From Kaistia terrae (GTDB lineage Bacteria; Pseudomonadota; Alphaproteobacteria; Rhizobiales; Kaistiaceae), in contig NZ_JAPKNH010000006.1 of NCBI RefSeq assembly GCF_026344005.1, positions 1-64,000 of the forward strand: a stretch of DNA of 64,000 nucleotides, written 5' to 3'. Below the pieces are notes generated by a model, which did not search any database, was not told the origin of the DNA, and saw only the letters and a list, made by a program, of their open reading frames with translations. Shown here in pieces: positions 48,081 through 52,833 of the stretch; position 1 is the first letter of the stretch, and each line of letters begins with the position of its first letter. The translations under genes and the position numbers were made by a program.

Positions 48081-48153
48081 AAAAAAAATGACGCCGGCGC
48101 GCGACCGGGAGCCGAAGGGGGAGGCTCAAAACACGGTCGCGTCTGCCGGCGTC
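48081..48153 (-). terminator. Long nested-stem intrinsic terminator downstream of the DUF1127 gene
   Basis: Three stacked helices: GACGCCGGC with GCCGGCGTC (9 bp), CGCGACCG with CGGTCGCG (8 bp) and GAGCC with GGCTC (5 bp), closing a loop whose minus-strand sequence is TCCCCCTTC. On the minus strand the structure is followed by ATTTTTTTT (from 48089 to 48081). It would end a transcript coming from the DUF1127 side. Confidence 0.85.
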
Positions 48154-48196
48154 TGACGCATGGTTTTGGGAGGAAAACCGCATCGCGTCTAAAGAG

Positions 48197-48230
48197 AAAC
48201 GCCCGTCGGGGAGGAGGTCGACGGGCGTTT
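48197..48230 (-). ncRNA. CCUCC-loop hairpin 3
   Basis: Twelve-bp perfect stem (48197-48208 with 48219-48230) presenting the ten-base loop ACCTCCTCCC on the minus strand. On the plus strand the same loop would read as a Shine-Dalgarno-like GGGAGGAGGT, and the stem's AAA/TTT ends make it look like a terminator either way. The anti-SD reading fits its neighbours better. Confidence 0.75.
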
Positions 48231-48236
48231 TAAAGT

Positions 48237-48270
48237 GGCGCGTTGCCGGGGAGGAGGTCAGCGCGGCGCC
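48237..48270 (-). ncRNA. CCUCC-loop hairpin 2
   Basis: Outer 5-bp stem GGCGC/GCGCC, a 3x3 internal loop, inner 4-bp stem GCTG/CGGC with one G-U pair, and loop ACCTCCTCCC, identical over ten bases to hairpin 3 although the stems are unrelated in sequence. Confidence 0.7.
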
Positions 48271-48271
48271 G

Positions 48272-48309
48272 ATCGCAGGGGTCGGGAGGGGGAGGATGAT
48301 CCCTGCGAT
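48272..48309 (-). ncRNA. CCUCC-loop hairpin 1
   Basis: Perfect 9-bp stem ATCGCAGGG with CCCTGCGAT and a 20-base loop containing CCTCCCCCTCCC on the minus strand. It begins 31 bases after the DUF1127 stop codon. Confidence 0.65.
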
Positions 48310-48340
48310 ATTCTTGAAGTCGTATCAGGTGTCGAAGGTA

Positions 48341-48493
48341 TTAGTAACCAACTGCCTGCTTGGCAACGCGCTCGATTTCGCCGCGGTGAATGCCGAGGTC
48401 AGCAAGCTCGCGGCTGCTGAGACGCGAGAGCTCGTTGTAGGTCTCGCGGAACTTGCGCCAATTCTTGTAGGAAGCAACGAGGTTCATAGCCAT
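48341..48493 (-). CDS. DUF1127-family small protein (CcaF1-like)
   Basis: Fifty-residue basic protein with the DUF1127 core: NWRKFRETYNELSRLSSRELADLGIHRGEIERVA, about residues 12-45. ATG 48493 has AAGGA about ten bases upstream; longer frames through this ATG are not coding. Known DUF1127 proteins such as CcaF1 of Rhodobacter are RNA-binding and co-transcribed with small RNAs matured from their 3' UTR, matching the hairpin array that follows. A possible stress-type -10 (CTATAT, 48578-48573) lies about 80 bases upstream without a convincing -35. Confidence 0.88.
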   Translation of the reverse strand: MAMNLVASYKNWRKFRETYNELSRLSSRELADLGIHRGEIERVAKQAVGY

Positions 48494-49059
48494 TTTCGGA
48501 TGTCCTTTAAATTCGGTCTGATTTCTGTCGAACCGGCGCCGGATTTCTCTGTCGCCGTTCTTGTTGACGTTGATATAGGCTCCTGCTGCCCGATTGAGCA
48601 CTATGTAAAATCTCATGCCAGCGATGCGTTTAGCGCAGAGCAGCATTAATATTGCCGTCATATTGCGGTGCAGCATTAAGGGATATGGCTGGATTGCGGC
48701 ACTCTGGTACCGATTGGGGCGGCGGCGGGGCGCCAGAACGGCCGAGGCATGACCGTGACGCATGCCCGAGCTCTTCCGGCCCTGCCTAATTCGCAGGCGT
48801 GCCTTCGTCCGAGCCACGCCTTCCCCTGGCAAGCGCATAAAAAAAGACCGGGCCAAAGCCCGGTCTTGATCGTTCTGCGGTCGTTGGCGCCGCGGATCTC
48901 GTCGCCCCGGCGAAGGTCGGGGCACATAGATGCTAGCTATCGACGCCTTGGCCGAGCCTTCTGGACAAGCTCCAGCACGTATGGATCCCGGCCTTCGCCG
49001 GGATGACGGTGGAGCGCGGGACTCGCTGCAGCAGCTAATCCCGCGCACCCGACAGAAAA
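48494..49059. other. Intergenic region upstream of the DUF1127 gene
   Basis: This 566-bp gap holds, from the left: the DUF1127 leader; a patch with two copies each of GCAGCATTAA and ATATTGC (48639-48680); the hss terminator (48844-48867); and two family-C palindromic fragments (near 48900-48925 and 48982-49010). Open frames here look like read-through of non-coding DNA, and I support no gene. Confidence 0.5.
48844..48867 (-). terminator. Intrinsic terminator of the odc-GNAT-hss operon
   Basis: Ten-bp perfect stem AAGACCGGGC/GCCCGGTCTT with loop CAAA on the plus strand. On the minus strand it is followed by a T-run (48845-48839 are all A on the plus strand), about 190 bases after the hss stop. 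Confidence 0.85.
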
Positions 49060-50499
49060 TCAGCCCAGATTGTGGACCAGAACGTTGCGGAACTGCCAGG
49101 GGTCGCTCTCGTCGATATCTTCCGGGAAGAAGCCCGGGCGATCGGTGAGCGGCGTCCAGTCGGTATAGATGCCCTCGACGGTGCCGAGATAGGGCTTCTG
49201 CACCTTCAGGCAGTGGTGATAGTCCATCTCGTCTGCCTCGACGATGCCGCGGTCCGGATGGGCCAGCGCCCAGGACATGCCGGCCACGACGGCCGAGGTC
49301 ACCTGCATGCCGGTAGCGTTCTGGTAAGGCGCGTTCTCGCGCGCCTCGTCGATGGTCAGGCGCGAGCCATACCAGTAGGCGTTCTTGGCGTGGCCATAGA
49401 GCAGCACGCCCAGTTCGTCGCGACCGGCGAGAATCTCGTCCTCGCTGAGGATGTGGATCTTCGACTGCCGCTTGCCGGCGCGGCCGAACATCTCGTGCAG
49501 CGACAGCATGGCGTCGTTCGACGGATGATAGGCGTAGTGGCAGGTCGGCCGGTAGATCACTTCGCCGTTCTCGCGCATCGTGAAGTGATCGGCGATCGAG
49601 ATCGCCTCATTATGCGTCACGAGGAAACCGAGCTGCGGGCCGGGCGTCGGGCACCAGGAACGCACGCGCGTATCGGCGCCCGGTCCGAGCAGGAAGATCG
49701 CCGCGCCGCTGCCCGTATCGTGGGTGCGGGCGTGGGCCGGAATCCACCGCTCATGCGTGCCCCAGCCAAGCTCGGCCGGCTGCAGCGCCTCGGAAACGAA
49801 GCCCTCGACCGACCAGGTGTTGACGAAGGTGTCGAGCTGCTTGGCAACGCGGGCGCGCTGCGTGTCGCGCTCGGCGATATGGATGCCCTTGACGCCCGTT
49901 GCGTGCATCAGCGCCGCCCATTCGCGCCGCGACGTCGGCTCGTCATGTTCGATGTTGAGATCGCGGGCGATGTCGAGCAGGGCCTGCTTGACGAACCACG
50001 ACACCATGCCCGGATTGGCGCCCGAACAGGAAACGGCAGTCGGACCGCCGGGGTTGGCGCGCTTCTCGGCCAGAAGCTCTTCGCGCAGCGCATAATTGGA
50101 GCGCGAGGCGGGATCTGCCTTGTGGTCGTAGTAGAAGCCGGGCCAGGGCTCGATGACGGTATCGATGTAGAGGCTGCCCATCTCGCGGGCGAGCTTCATG
50201 ATATCGAGGGACGAGGTATCGACGGAGAGGTTGACCAGGAAGCCCTGGCCGGTTTCGCTCGTCAGGAGCGGAGTCAGGACGTCGCGGTAGTTCTCGCGCG
50301 TCAGCGCCACTTTCACGTGCTTGACGCCAAAAGTGGCCATCAGGCCAGCGTTTTCGTCGCTCGGCTCGATGATCGTGATCTGGGGTCTATCCAGGGCGAA
50401 ATGGCGCTTCAGCAGCGGGAGAAATCCGCGTCCGATCGAACCGAAGCCGATAATGACCACAGGGCCATTGATGCGACCATAAACAGGCCAGTTCGTCAT
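49060..50499 (-). CDS. hss: Homospermidine synthase
   Basis: NAD+-dependent enzyme that condenses two putrescines, or putrescine with spermidine, to sym-homospermidine; 479 aa, close to the 477 aa of the characterised Blastochloris enzyme. The nucleotide motif GFGSIGRGFLPLL is near residue 18, and conserved blocks such as DTVIEPWPGFYYD and SCSGANPGMVSWFVK match the family. ATG 50499 with GGAG upstream is preferred to the long upstream frame. It lies downstream of a decarboxylase and a GNAT gene on the same strand; ODC supplies putrescine. Confidence 0.93.
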   Translation of the reverse strand: MTNWPVYGRINGPVVIIGFGSIGRGFLPLLKRHFALDRPQITIIEPSDENAGLMATFGVKHVKVALTRENYRDVLTPLLTSETGQGFLVNLSVDTSSLDIMKLAREMGSLYIDTVIEPWPGFYYDHKADPASRSNYALREELLAEKRANPGGPTAVSCSGANPGMVSWFVKQALLDIARDLNIEHDEPTSRREWAALMHATGVKGIHIAERDTQRARVAKQLDTFVNTWSVEGFVSEALQPAELGWGTHERWIPAHARTHDTGSGAAIFLLGPGADTRVRSWCPTPGPQLGFLVTHNEAISIADHFTMRENGEVIYRPTCHYAYHPSNDAMLSLHEMFGRAGKRQSKIHILSEDEILAGRDELGVLLYGHAKNAYWYGSRLTIDEARENAPYQNATGMQVTSAVVAGMSWALAHPDRGIVEADEMDYHHCLKVQKPYLGTVEGIYTDWTPLTDRPGFFPEDIDESDPWQFRNVLVHNLG

Positions 50500-50624
50500 C
50501 GCGAGACACTCCTCAAAGTCGAAATCAACAAGTGGGGTACCGTACCCTTCCTTCGTGACAAACAAAAAGTCGTGGATGGACGGGGGAATCCCTTCCATTC
50601 CACGACCTGTTTGAAGCGTTAAGC

Positions 50625-51210: not shown

Positions 51211-52344
51211 TCAGATCACGAAGGATTCGAGCGGCTTGAAGCCGTTGAAGGCAACGGCCGAATAGGTCGTCGTGTAGGCGCCCGTGCCTTCGATCAGCAC
51301 GTCGTCGCCGATCGAGAGCGAGACCGGCAGGTGATACGGCGTCTTCTCATAGAGAACGTCGGCCGAATCGCAGGTCGGGCCGGCCAGGATGCAAGCCGTC
51401 TTCTCGTCGTGATCATGCGCCGTGCGGATCGGGTAGCGGATCGACTCGTCCATCGTCTCGGCGAGACCGCCGAACTTGCCGATGTCGAGATAGACCCAGC
51501 GCAGGTCGTCCGCCGCGTCGCTCTTCTTCGAGATGAGCACGACTTCCGTCTTGATGATGCCGGCATTGCCGACCATGCCGCGACCCGGCTCGATGATCGT
51601 CTCGGGGATCTGATTGCCAAAATGGCGCTTCAGGGCCTGGTCGATCGACGAGGCATAGTTCTCCACGCCCGGAATCTCCTTGAGATAACGGGTCGGGAAG
51701 CCGCCGCCGAGATTGACCATCGACAGCTGGATGCCGCGCTCTGCGAGCGTGTGGAAGATGCCGGCGGCCGAGGCGAGCGCGCCGTCCCAGGCTTCGGTGT
51801 TCGCCTGCTGCGAACCGACATGGAACGAAACGCCATAGGCGCGCAGGCCCGAACGATGGGCATGCTCAAGCACGCCGACAGCCATCTGGGGCTCGCAGCC
51901 GAATTTGCGCGAAAGCGGCCATTCGGCGCCGGCGCCGTCGCAGAGAATGCGGCAGAACACGCGGGTGCCGGGAGCGGCACGGGCGACCTTGTCGACCTCG
52001 GCTTCGCAATCGACCGCATAGAGGTTGATGCCACGAGCAAAGGCAGCGGCGACGTCGCGCTCTTTCTTGATCGTGTTGCCGAAGGAGATGCGGTCCGGGG
52101 TCGCGCCGGCGGCCAGCGCCATGTCGATCTCGGCGACCGACGCGCAGTCGAAATTCGAGCCGAGCGAGGCGAGCAGCGCCAGCACTTCCGGAGCCGGGTT
52201 TGCCTTCACCGCGTAGAAGACGCGGGTATCCGGCAACGCATGCGCGAAGGTGAGATAATTCTCCCGGATAACATCAAGATCGACAACGAGGCACGGGCCG
52301 TCGGGACGTCGGGTGTTGAGGAAGTCGATGATGCGAGCGGTCAT
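51211..52344 (-). CDS. odc: Ornithine decarboxylase, fold-type III PLP enzyme
   Basis: Decarboxylates ornithine, possibly also lysine, to putrescine; 377 aa, the eukaryote-like short form. The PLP Lys is in FYAVKANP (Lys47). HVGSQ (174-178), the phosphate loop LGGGFPTRY (211-219) and EPGRG (251-255) are present, and the catalytic Cys-Asp pair is in GPTCDSADVLYE (Cys324/Asp325). All active-site residues look intact. It heads the odc-GNAT-hss operon, preceded by a leader of about 490 nt that probably controls expression by polyamine level. Confidence 0.93.
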   Translation of the reverse strand: MTARIIDFLNTRRPDGPCLVVDLDVIRENYLTFAHALPDTRVFYAVKANPAPEVLALLASLGSNFDCASVAEIDMALAAGATPDRISFGNTIKKERDVAAAFARGINLYAVDCEAEVDKVARAAPGTRVFCRILCDGAGAEWPLSRKFGCEPQMAVGVLEHAHRSGLRAYGVSFHVGSQQANTEAWDGALASAAGIFHTLAERGIQLSMVNLGGGFPTRYLKEIPGVENYASSIDQALKRHFGNQIPETIIEPGRGMVGNAGIIKTEVVLISKKSDAADDLRWVYLDIGKFGGLAETMDESIRYPIRTAHDHDEKTACILAGPTCDSADVLYEKTPYHLPVSLSIGDDVLIEGTGAYTTTYSAVAFNGFKPLESFVI

Positions 52345-52833
52345 GGAGAATCTCCCCGTTGGCCTGCCAAGGCCAAATAAGCGTTACGAGCGAAGACGAA
52401 ACCGGAACGAAATCGCCGCGCAAATCGCTATGGACGCGATCGGAACGTTGAAGACGAGCCGTTTTTGCCGGGGTTAGCCGGCTGTTTTCGCGGGTAGCAG
52501 TCGCAGCGATAAACGAGCGTTTATCGTGAGCGCTGCCTTCGCTTGGAACGGGGGAACCCGATCCGCACGCCCGGCAAGGATGTAGTGCCTCTTCAGTGAC
52601 AACGGCCGATGGAGAGCCGTCCGAGACCAAAAAAGCCCGCTACGTCGTTGCTTCAAGTCGCGTCCTCCGCGGAGACGGAGTTCACCGGTTTCGCTTTCCG
52701 GCTGCCGACCTTCTCGGGATCTCTCCCGAACTCCTGGGACCCTCCTTACGGAAGATCTTGGGCGTCGCTTCGGCCTCTTGTCCGAAGCCCCACCGGTCGG
52801 CACGCAACCACAGGCACGTGCGATAATTGGGCA
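52345..52833 (-). promoter_or_regulatory. Long structured 5' leader of odc, speF-motif candidate
   Basis: Alphaproteobacterial ornithine decarboxylase genes are known to carry the conserved speF RNA motif in their leaders. Here a non-coding stretch of about 490 nt precedes odc. Visible minus-strand structures are hairpins at 52767-52788 (7-bp stem), 52714-52729 (6-bp stem, 4-base loop) and 52665-52674 (CTCCGCGGAG), plus a 20-bp palindrome at 52507-52526. GCGGGCTTTTTT at 52640-52629 could be an attenuator end. No model search was possible, so identity with the speF motif is inferred from position and length. Confidence 0.55.
52507..52526. promoter_or_regulatory. Perfect 20-bp palindrome in the odc leader
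   Basis: CGATAAACG-AG-CGTTTATCG. The symmetric AT-bearing arms stand out in the G+C-rich leader. It could be an RNA hairpin or a protein operator. Confidence 0.5.

Follow-up and report, generated by a model that had tools for sequence, protein, structure and literature searches.

The locus examined here raises the question of what kind of element follows a small DUF1127 gene in Kaistia terrae, where a row of hairpins with CCUCC loops occupies the minus strand of the window, by which we mean the whole 64,000-nucleotide stretch that was analysed. The gene (48341..48493, minus strand) encodes a protein of 50 aa that matches PF06568 with 57.2 bits against a cut-off of 23.3, and the initial annotation had taken the whole for a cuckoo or CcsR-type small-RNA locus. 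CCUCC hairpin loops resemble the mRNA-docking sequence of the ribosome at the 16S 3' end, and each is an anti-Shine-Dalgarno (anti-SD) loop. For a comparison of the loops with the 16S 3' end we used a 16-base tail, which had no match in three Kaistia genomes; its 11-base core had 17 matches, and none of the six inspected was 16S.

Covariance models were used to decide on the family. The ar14 model (RF02344), which describes a three-hairpin small RNA (sRNA), matches 121 nt at 48193..48313 (minus strand) with 65.5 bits against a gathering score of 58.8 (E 1.4e-9 over the whole 64-kb window), aligns from end to end (model positions 1-123) and starts 27 nt past the DUF1127 stop. The ar7 model reaches 21.4 bits against a cut-off of 60, and membership of CcsR1 (RF02791) was rejected at 19.9 bits, far below its cut-off of 65.3. 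Because CcsR1 scores so low, we assign the family as ar14/NfeR1, and by score and predicted fold the minus-strand array is a member of the alpha-r14 / ar14 (cuckoo, NfeR1/SmelA075 type) small-RNA family. The first classification is right in the main: a cuckoo-type RNA, here ar14 above its cut-off, lies behind a DUF1127 gene, while the CcsR part falls. The three CCUCC (anti-SD) loops of ar14 are all found in the predicted folds. An identical CCUCCUCCC is expected in each, and the second and third hairpins (H2 and H3) have it exactly, but the first (H1) reads CCUCCCCCUCCC, a departure that the curated model tolerates; the H1 loop does contain CCUCCUCCC in 3/7 orthologs. The arrangement of CIN1 loci, with DUF1127 directly upstream on the same strand, is also found (48493-48341, then ar14 from 48313). 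A search of the same genome for ar15 (AbcR) gave no match, and neither did its control.

The array shares with the ar14/NfeR1 type (SmelA075, RF02344) three consecutive CCUCC-loop hairpins, a U-rich end after H3 and similar promoter elements (a TGCA-N6-GCAT-like box and CTATAT). It differs from that type in standing behind a DUF1127 gene, in an enlarged H1 loop that is not exactly CCUCCUCCC, and in having an extra hairpin, H4, and a long one, H5, downstream. As in the CIN1 locus CcaF1-CcsR1-4 of Rhodobacter sphaeroides, a row of CCUCC-loop hairpins and a terminator come after a DUF1127 gene on the same strand. In Kaistia, however, there is a single ar14 unit of three hairpins in place of four CcsR RNAs (CcsR1 is modelled with two hairpins), and by the look of the conserved elements the promoter does not resemble the reported RpoHI/RpoHII one. 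SmelA099 (PMC3927594) also has four anti-SD-loop hairpins in a row, whereas in Kaistia the fourth, with a loop of six bases, occurs in 3/7 orthologs and is placed beyond the terminator-like H3.

All five hairpins lie on the minus strand. In the predicted folds H1 (48272..48309) has the enlarged loop AUCCUCCCCCUCCC with two CCUCC registers, and H2 (48237..48270) and H3 (48197..48230) both have the loop ACCUCCUCCC; H3 has a U-rich tail and is also placed by the ar14 alignment. Coordinates and letters confirm the earlier claims of three hairpins within 145 nt of the DUF1127 stop codon, H3 ending 144 nt past it, and of one loop shared by two of them. H4 (48155..48189) holds GGUUUU-CCUCCC-AAAACC within an outer stem, its loop being the six bases CCUCCC. 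H5 (48090..48153) is a long nested hairpin, followed by eight T that can be read directly from the letters (48081..48088). The nested terminator described at first is present with its T8 tail, at 24 pairs in the predicted fold and not 22 bp. The description of the array as three hairpins plus a C-rich terminator loop needs correction, as it missed H4: there are four CCUCC-loop hairpins, and conservation is lacking in the loop of the terminator. For the 266-nt stretch the predicted folding energy is -107.9 kcal/mol, whereas its shuffles average -71.5 (z -7.39), and 0/200 shuffles were as good. Since H3 is the last hairpin of the ar14 model and has the U-rich tail, it is likely the first terminator of the sRNA, and H5 is the probable second one.

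How widespread this arrangement is becomes apparent in a sample of 14 Kaistia genomes, the window's own included, in which ar14 is over the cut-off in 14/14. The window's own genome has five DUF1127 genes, three with ar14 behind them and two without, and each of its three ar14 matches exceeds the cut-off and neighbours a DUF1127 gene. A query with the window protein gives 44 DUF1127 genes in the 14 genomes. The statement that nearly all Kaistia DUF1127 genes have the array (43/44 by this query) is too strong, as the Pfam model gives 67 genes, with the hairpin array directly behind 43/67 and absent from 24. Because these 24 genes do without it, the DUF1127 family does not need the array. Three CCUCC-loop hairpins are found in 38 of the 43 array units, four in three units and two in the remaining two, namely L119, where a contig end cuts the array, and L120, where a C-to-T change turns the H2 loop into ACCUCUUCCC. 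The one array-less gene among the 44 window-protein matches, L121, is a divergent DUF1127 with no CCUCC-loop hairpin within 300 nt downstream. In the same downstream distance the other 23 array-less genes (L166-L188) have CCTCCTCCC in none and a single CCUCC-containing hairpin loop in one; 14/23 have longer frames (95-272 aa from the furthest ATG) and nine are short (48-54 aa). This suggests that L121 and L166-L188 are a separate class or classes of DUF1127.

Seen from the RNA, the Kaistia genomes hold 47 ar14 matches, 40 of them over the cut-off; their coordinates link 43 of the 47 to DUF1127 and leave four unlinked. Three of the unlinked matches are weak (32-36 bits) and one is strong (76.7 bits; L105, on G130:C3). 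Across the order, ar14 has a match in 63/199 genomes and is over the cut-off in 29/199. Sixty non-Kaistia genomes have a match, and among 27 non-Kaistia ar14 loci 21 are preceded on their own strand, within 400 nt, by a DUF1127 frame (two of the 21 score weakly) and six are standalone. Of the named relatives, those closest to the DUF1127 protein (96-69% identity) come from Kaistia granuli, K. defluvii, K. adipata, K. hirudinis and K. soli, and from a Hyphomicrobiales MAG and a genome labelled Mesorhizobium.

The Kaistia units can also be used to ask what is being conserved. The predicted loop is ACCUCCUCCC in 30/43 H1, 39/43 H2 and 31/42 H3. The inner stem of H1 occurs as 21 distinct arm pairs with 92.3% of positions paired, against 67.1% when the arms are re-dealt (maximum 79.8%), and that of H2 as 26 distinct arm pairs with 72.1% paired against 53.4% (maximum 61.1%), in 1000 rounds of re-dealing that ignore the relatedness of the sequences. 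The 42 copies of H3 share just 3 distinct arm pairs in the inner stem, which is simply conserved, lends no covariation support and could be kept purely as a terminator. As far as predicted folds can tell, the loops of H1-H3 are kept throughout the Kaistia arrays while the stems of H1 and H2 covary. This supports the selection on anti-SD loops proposed in the initial annotation, whose other claim, of unrelated stems, holds within the locus but not across relatives, where the H3 stem is nearly fixed. With ar14 over its cut-off in the covariance search and the loops conserved in relatives, the result named beforehand as counting against a small-RNA locus, no hit together with unconserved loops, did not appear.

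The window's own branch comprises seven orthologs, namely the window (L063), L064, L065, L066, L068, L069 and L122. All seven have the H5 hairpin and an H1 loop, enlarged to 13-17 nt, that offers more than one CCUCC-like register, and the H2 loop is identical in 7/7. H4 is present in the window, L065 (K. defluvii) and L066; at the same site L064 and L122 have a short hairpin without the 22 nt. This 22-nt indel lies between copies of a GATGCG/CATGCG repeat. The three H4-bearing loci cluster together in a nine-locus tree (support 0.806), and one gain of H4 would be the simplest reading, with moderate support. Between the window and L065 one pair of the H4 stem is altered on both sides and the loop is unchanged. 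H5, with its 24 pairs, has largely identical arms in 7/7 orthologs and a variable apical loop. CCUCC occurs in that loop in only 2/7 (the window and L066), and we rejected the C-rich terminator loop as a further functional loop on this ground. The run of eight T near H5 is found in the window only, the other six orthologs having 3-5 T. The retention of H5 in 7/7 despite a variable T-run and loop may not be explained by termination alone. The idea that H4 and H5 are a dispersed repeat was likewise rejected, as the window's genome has no second full copy and matches them only in part, at three places over 21-28 nt.

Upstream of the DUF1127 gene, again on the minus strand, lies a putative LysR-type (LsrB/VtlR-like) half-site cluster TGCG..CGCA-N6-GCAT (48615..48637), which is kept in the seven orthologs and varied in Kaistia paralogs; its 14-mer 48628-48615 is one base off TGCA-N6-GCAT. 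The block conserved in the seven orthologs also contains, by eye, the -35-like element GTGCTC (48596..48601) and ends, 17 nt past it, in the -10-like element CTATAT (48573..48578), invariant in 7/7. A strict sigma-70 scan upstream of DUF1127 found no promoter. For Kaistia as a whole a descriptive consensus reads TGCATCA..CGCA..GC.GCCATG, TTTTTC, TGCTCA, ~17 nt and CTA.AT; it comes from 38 rows, some misregistered, of an anchored scan whose pattern was drawn by eye from the same rows, with 32/43 in the expected frame and 11 anchored elsewhere. The best match to TGCA-N6-GCAT within 300 nt upstream is exact in 9/43 array-linked units and has at most one mismatch in 41/43, although 12 of these 41 best matches sit away from the promoter; 4000 control windows gave 1.75% and 16.3%, and the array-less DUF1127 genes gave 0/23 and 8/23. 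On this evidence the upstream elements look LysR-type (LsrB/VtlR-like) plus sigma-70-like.

Such a pairing has precedents in the literature. LsrB activates NfeR1 from a TGCA-N6-GCAT site that precedes a sigma-70 promoter containing CTATAT (PMC10746234), and three DUF1127 genes of Brucella melitensis are under positive regulation by VtlR, for which a 15-base motif and a gene position right after trxB are reported (PMC12595884). The 15-base motif scores at least 11/15 in 33/43 units against 12% of 3000 control windows; this enrichment is mild and the window's best match lies off the promoter, and the motif was set aside as support. In the window's own genome a LysR-type gene (L127, 526-2424, minus strand) stands directly after trxB, the layout reported for vtlR. 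It is a candidate for the regulator of the DUF1127-ar14 loci.

The strong match without a DUF1127 neighbour (positions 1280-1640 of L105, in G130) retains the box, the -35-like and -10-like elements and the three-hairpin array, and the DUF1127 frame is absent from between them. Its upstream gene is common to L115, L083 and L085 (91.5, 78.8 and 77.4% identity over about 1.1-1.3 kb), which carry the frame at this locus. Its downstream flank matches L115 (81.7% over 1085 nt), and no match to it was found at L083 and L085. Loss of the frame would be simpler than its gain, given that L115, to which L105 is closest, carries it. With the frame absent and the RNA kept, the RNA gene survives without the protein there, in this one case. 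G130 retains further DUF1127 genes, three with an array and three without, from which the protein may yet act in trans. L105 offers a natural case for asking whether the small protein is needed by its neighbouring RNA, and it indicates that one locus can exist in either a CIN1-type or an NfeR1-type layout. A broader proposal is that the Kaistia DUF1127-ar14 loci are one LsrB/VtlR-type regulon, that the two layouts interconvert by loss or gain of the DUF1127 frame, and that indels at short repeats, the 22-nt one of H4 among them, adjust the number of loops. We regard this as tentative, with chances somewhat below even; if it is true, the RNA and not the protein is the conserved core of the locus.

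Our main reading, to which we give a probability of roughly 85%, is that a probably LysR-regulated promoter makes one DUF1127 and ar14 transcript whose 3' untranslated region yields an anti-SD regulator acting in trans. A single transcript would probably carry both the 50-aa protein and, as its 3' untranslated region, the ar14 RNA. That RNA would probably be freed by RNase processing, as for Rhodobacter CcsR1-4, or would end at H3, with some read-through into H4 and H5. CcsR1-4 arise from the ccaF1 3'UTR, and both RNase E and CcaF1 are involved in their maturation (PMC8625941, PMC10253847); the Kaistia protein may likewise have a role on its own RNA. The stems would keep the CCUCC-rich loops open, each loop would pair with the purine-rich Shine-Dalgarno sequence of target mRNAs and block ribosome loading, and several loops per RNA would give redundancy. 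By analogy with these RNAs and with NfeR1, whose loop motifs silence ntrB in trans at its translation start while loop mutants do not (PMC10746234), the RNA of the window should be a 3'UTR-derived multi-loop anti-SD regulator.

The hairpins could also do no more than terminate the DUF1127 mRNA in tandem or stabilise its 3' end, with no action in trans. The U-rich tail of H3, the terminator-like H5 and the preservation of the H3 and H5 stems, in H5 without its loop, would all agree with this. But CCUCC loops are unnecessary for termination, the loops of H1-H3 are kept while the stems of H1 and H2 covary, and L105 retains three hairpins and promoter elements without any DUF1127, which makes this explanation very improbable. 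Only slightly better is the prospect that the loops act in cis, as autoregulation, on the SD of their own transcript or of the next gene (47953-47540). A GGAGGGG does precede an ATG of that gene and AAAGGA lies ahead of the DUF1127 ATG; against cis action stand the array kept at L105 and the trans activity of NfeR1 (PMC10746234).

It is also unlikely, if a little less so, that the locus is a true CcsR orthologue that depends on RpoH for its transcription and on its own DUF1127 protein for maturation, exactly as its Rhodobacter counterpart does. The two share gene order and loop motif, with DUF1127 upstream, but the CcsR1 score lies far below its cut-off and the upstream elements look LysR/sigma-70-type. 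As to the protein, and counting against a role on RNA, DUF1127 proteins may instead work through contacts with other proteins (PhoR; PMC12501420), and an upstream-ORF attenuator is described for a different DUF1127 gene (PMC12218461).

The thought that the copy number might be undescribed is weak, because anti-SD families of three or four hairpins whose stems vary have been on record since 2011 (PMC3927594, section 2.7), and the link of DUF1127 to such sRNAs is already in print (PMC10253847). A search of one open-access library by title and start of abstract found no report of a Kaistia sRNA. So far as that library shows, what is new is the inventory for Kaistia, hairpin H4 with its indel, the LysR-type pattern shared by the promoters and the locus without DUF1127. 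These results extend the anti-SD sRNA family to Kaistia, where one DUF1127 class regularly precedes the RNA and others do not. They also suggest that one LysR-type regulator, of the LsrB/VtlR kind, controls both gene products; this would connect the separate reports on NfeR1 and on DUF1127 genes.

Two further features lie upstream in the window, both on the minus strand. A 512-aa protein (49060-50598) with saccharopine dehydrogenase domains and no NCBIfam match, which we take to be homospermidine synthase-like, precedes the DUF1127 gene. Further up, a speF leader (RF00518, 58.8 bits) and an ar45 sRNA (RF02347, 48.2 bits) lie back to back at 52486-52832, upstream of a gene (51211-52344) resembling PLP decarboxylases, its best NCBIfam matches being below cut-off.
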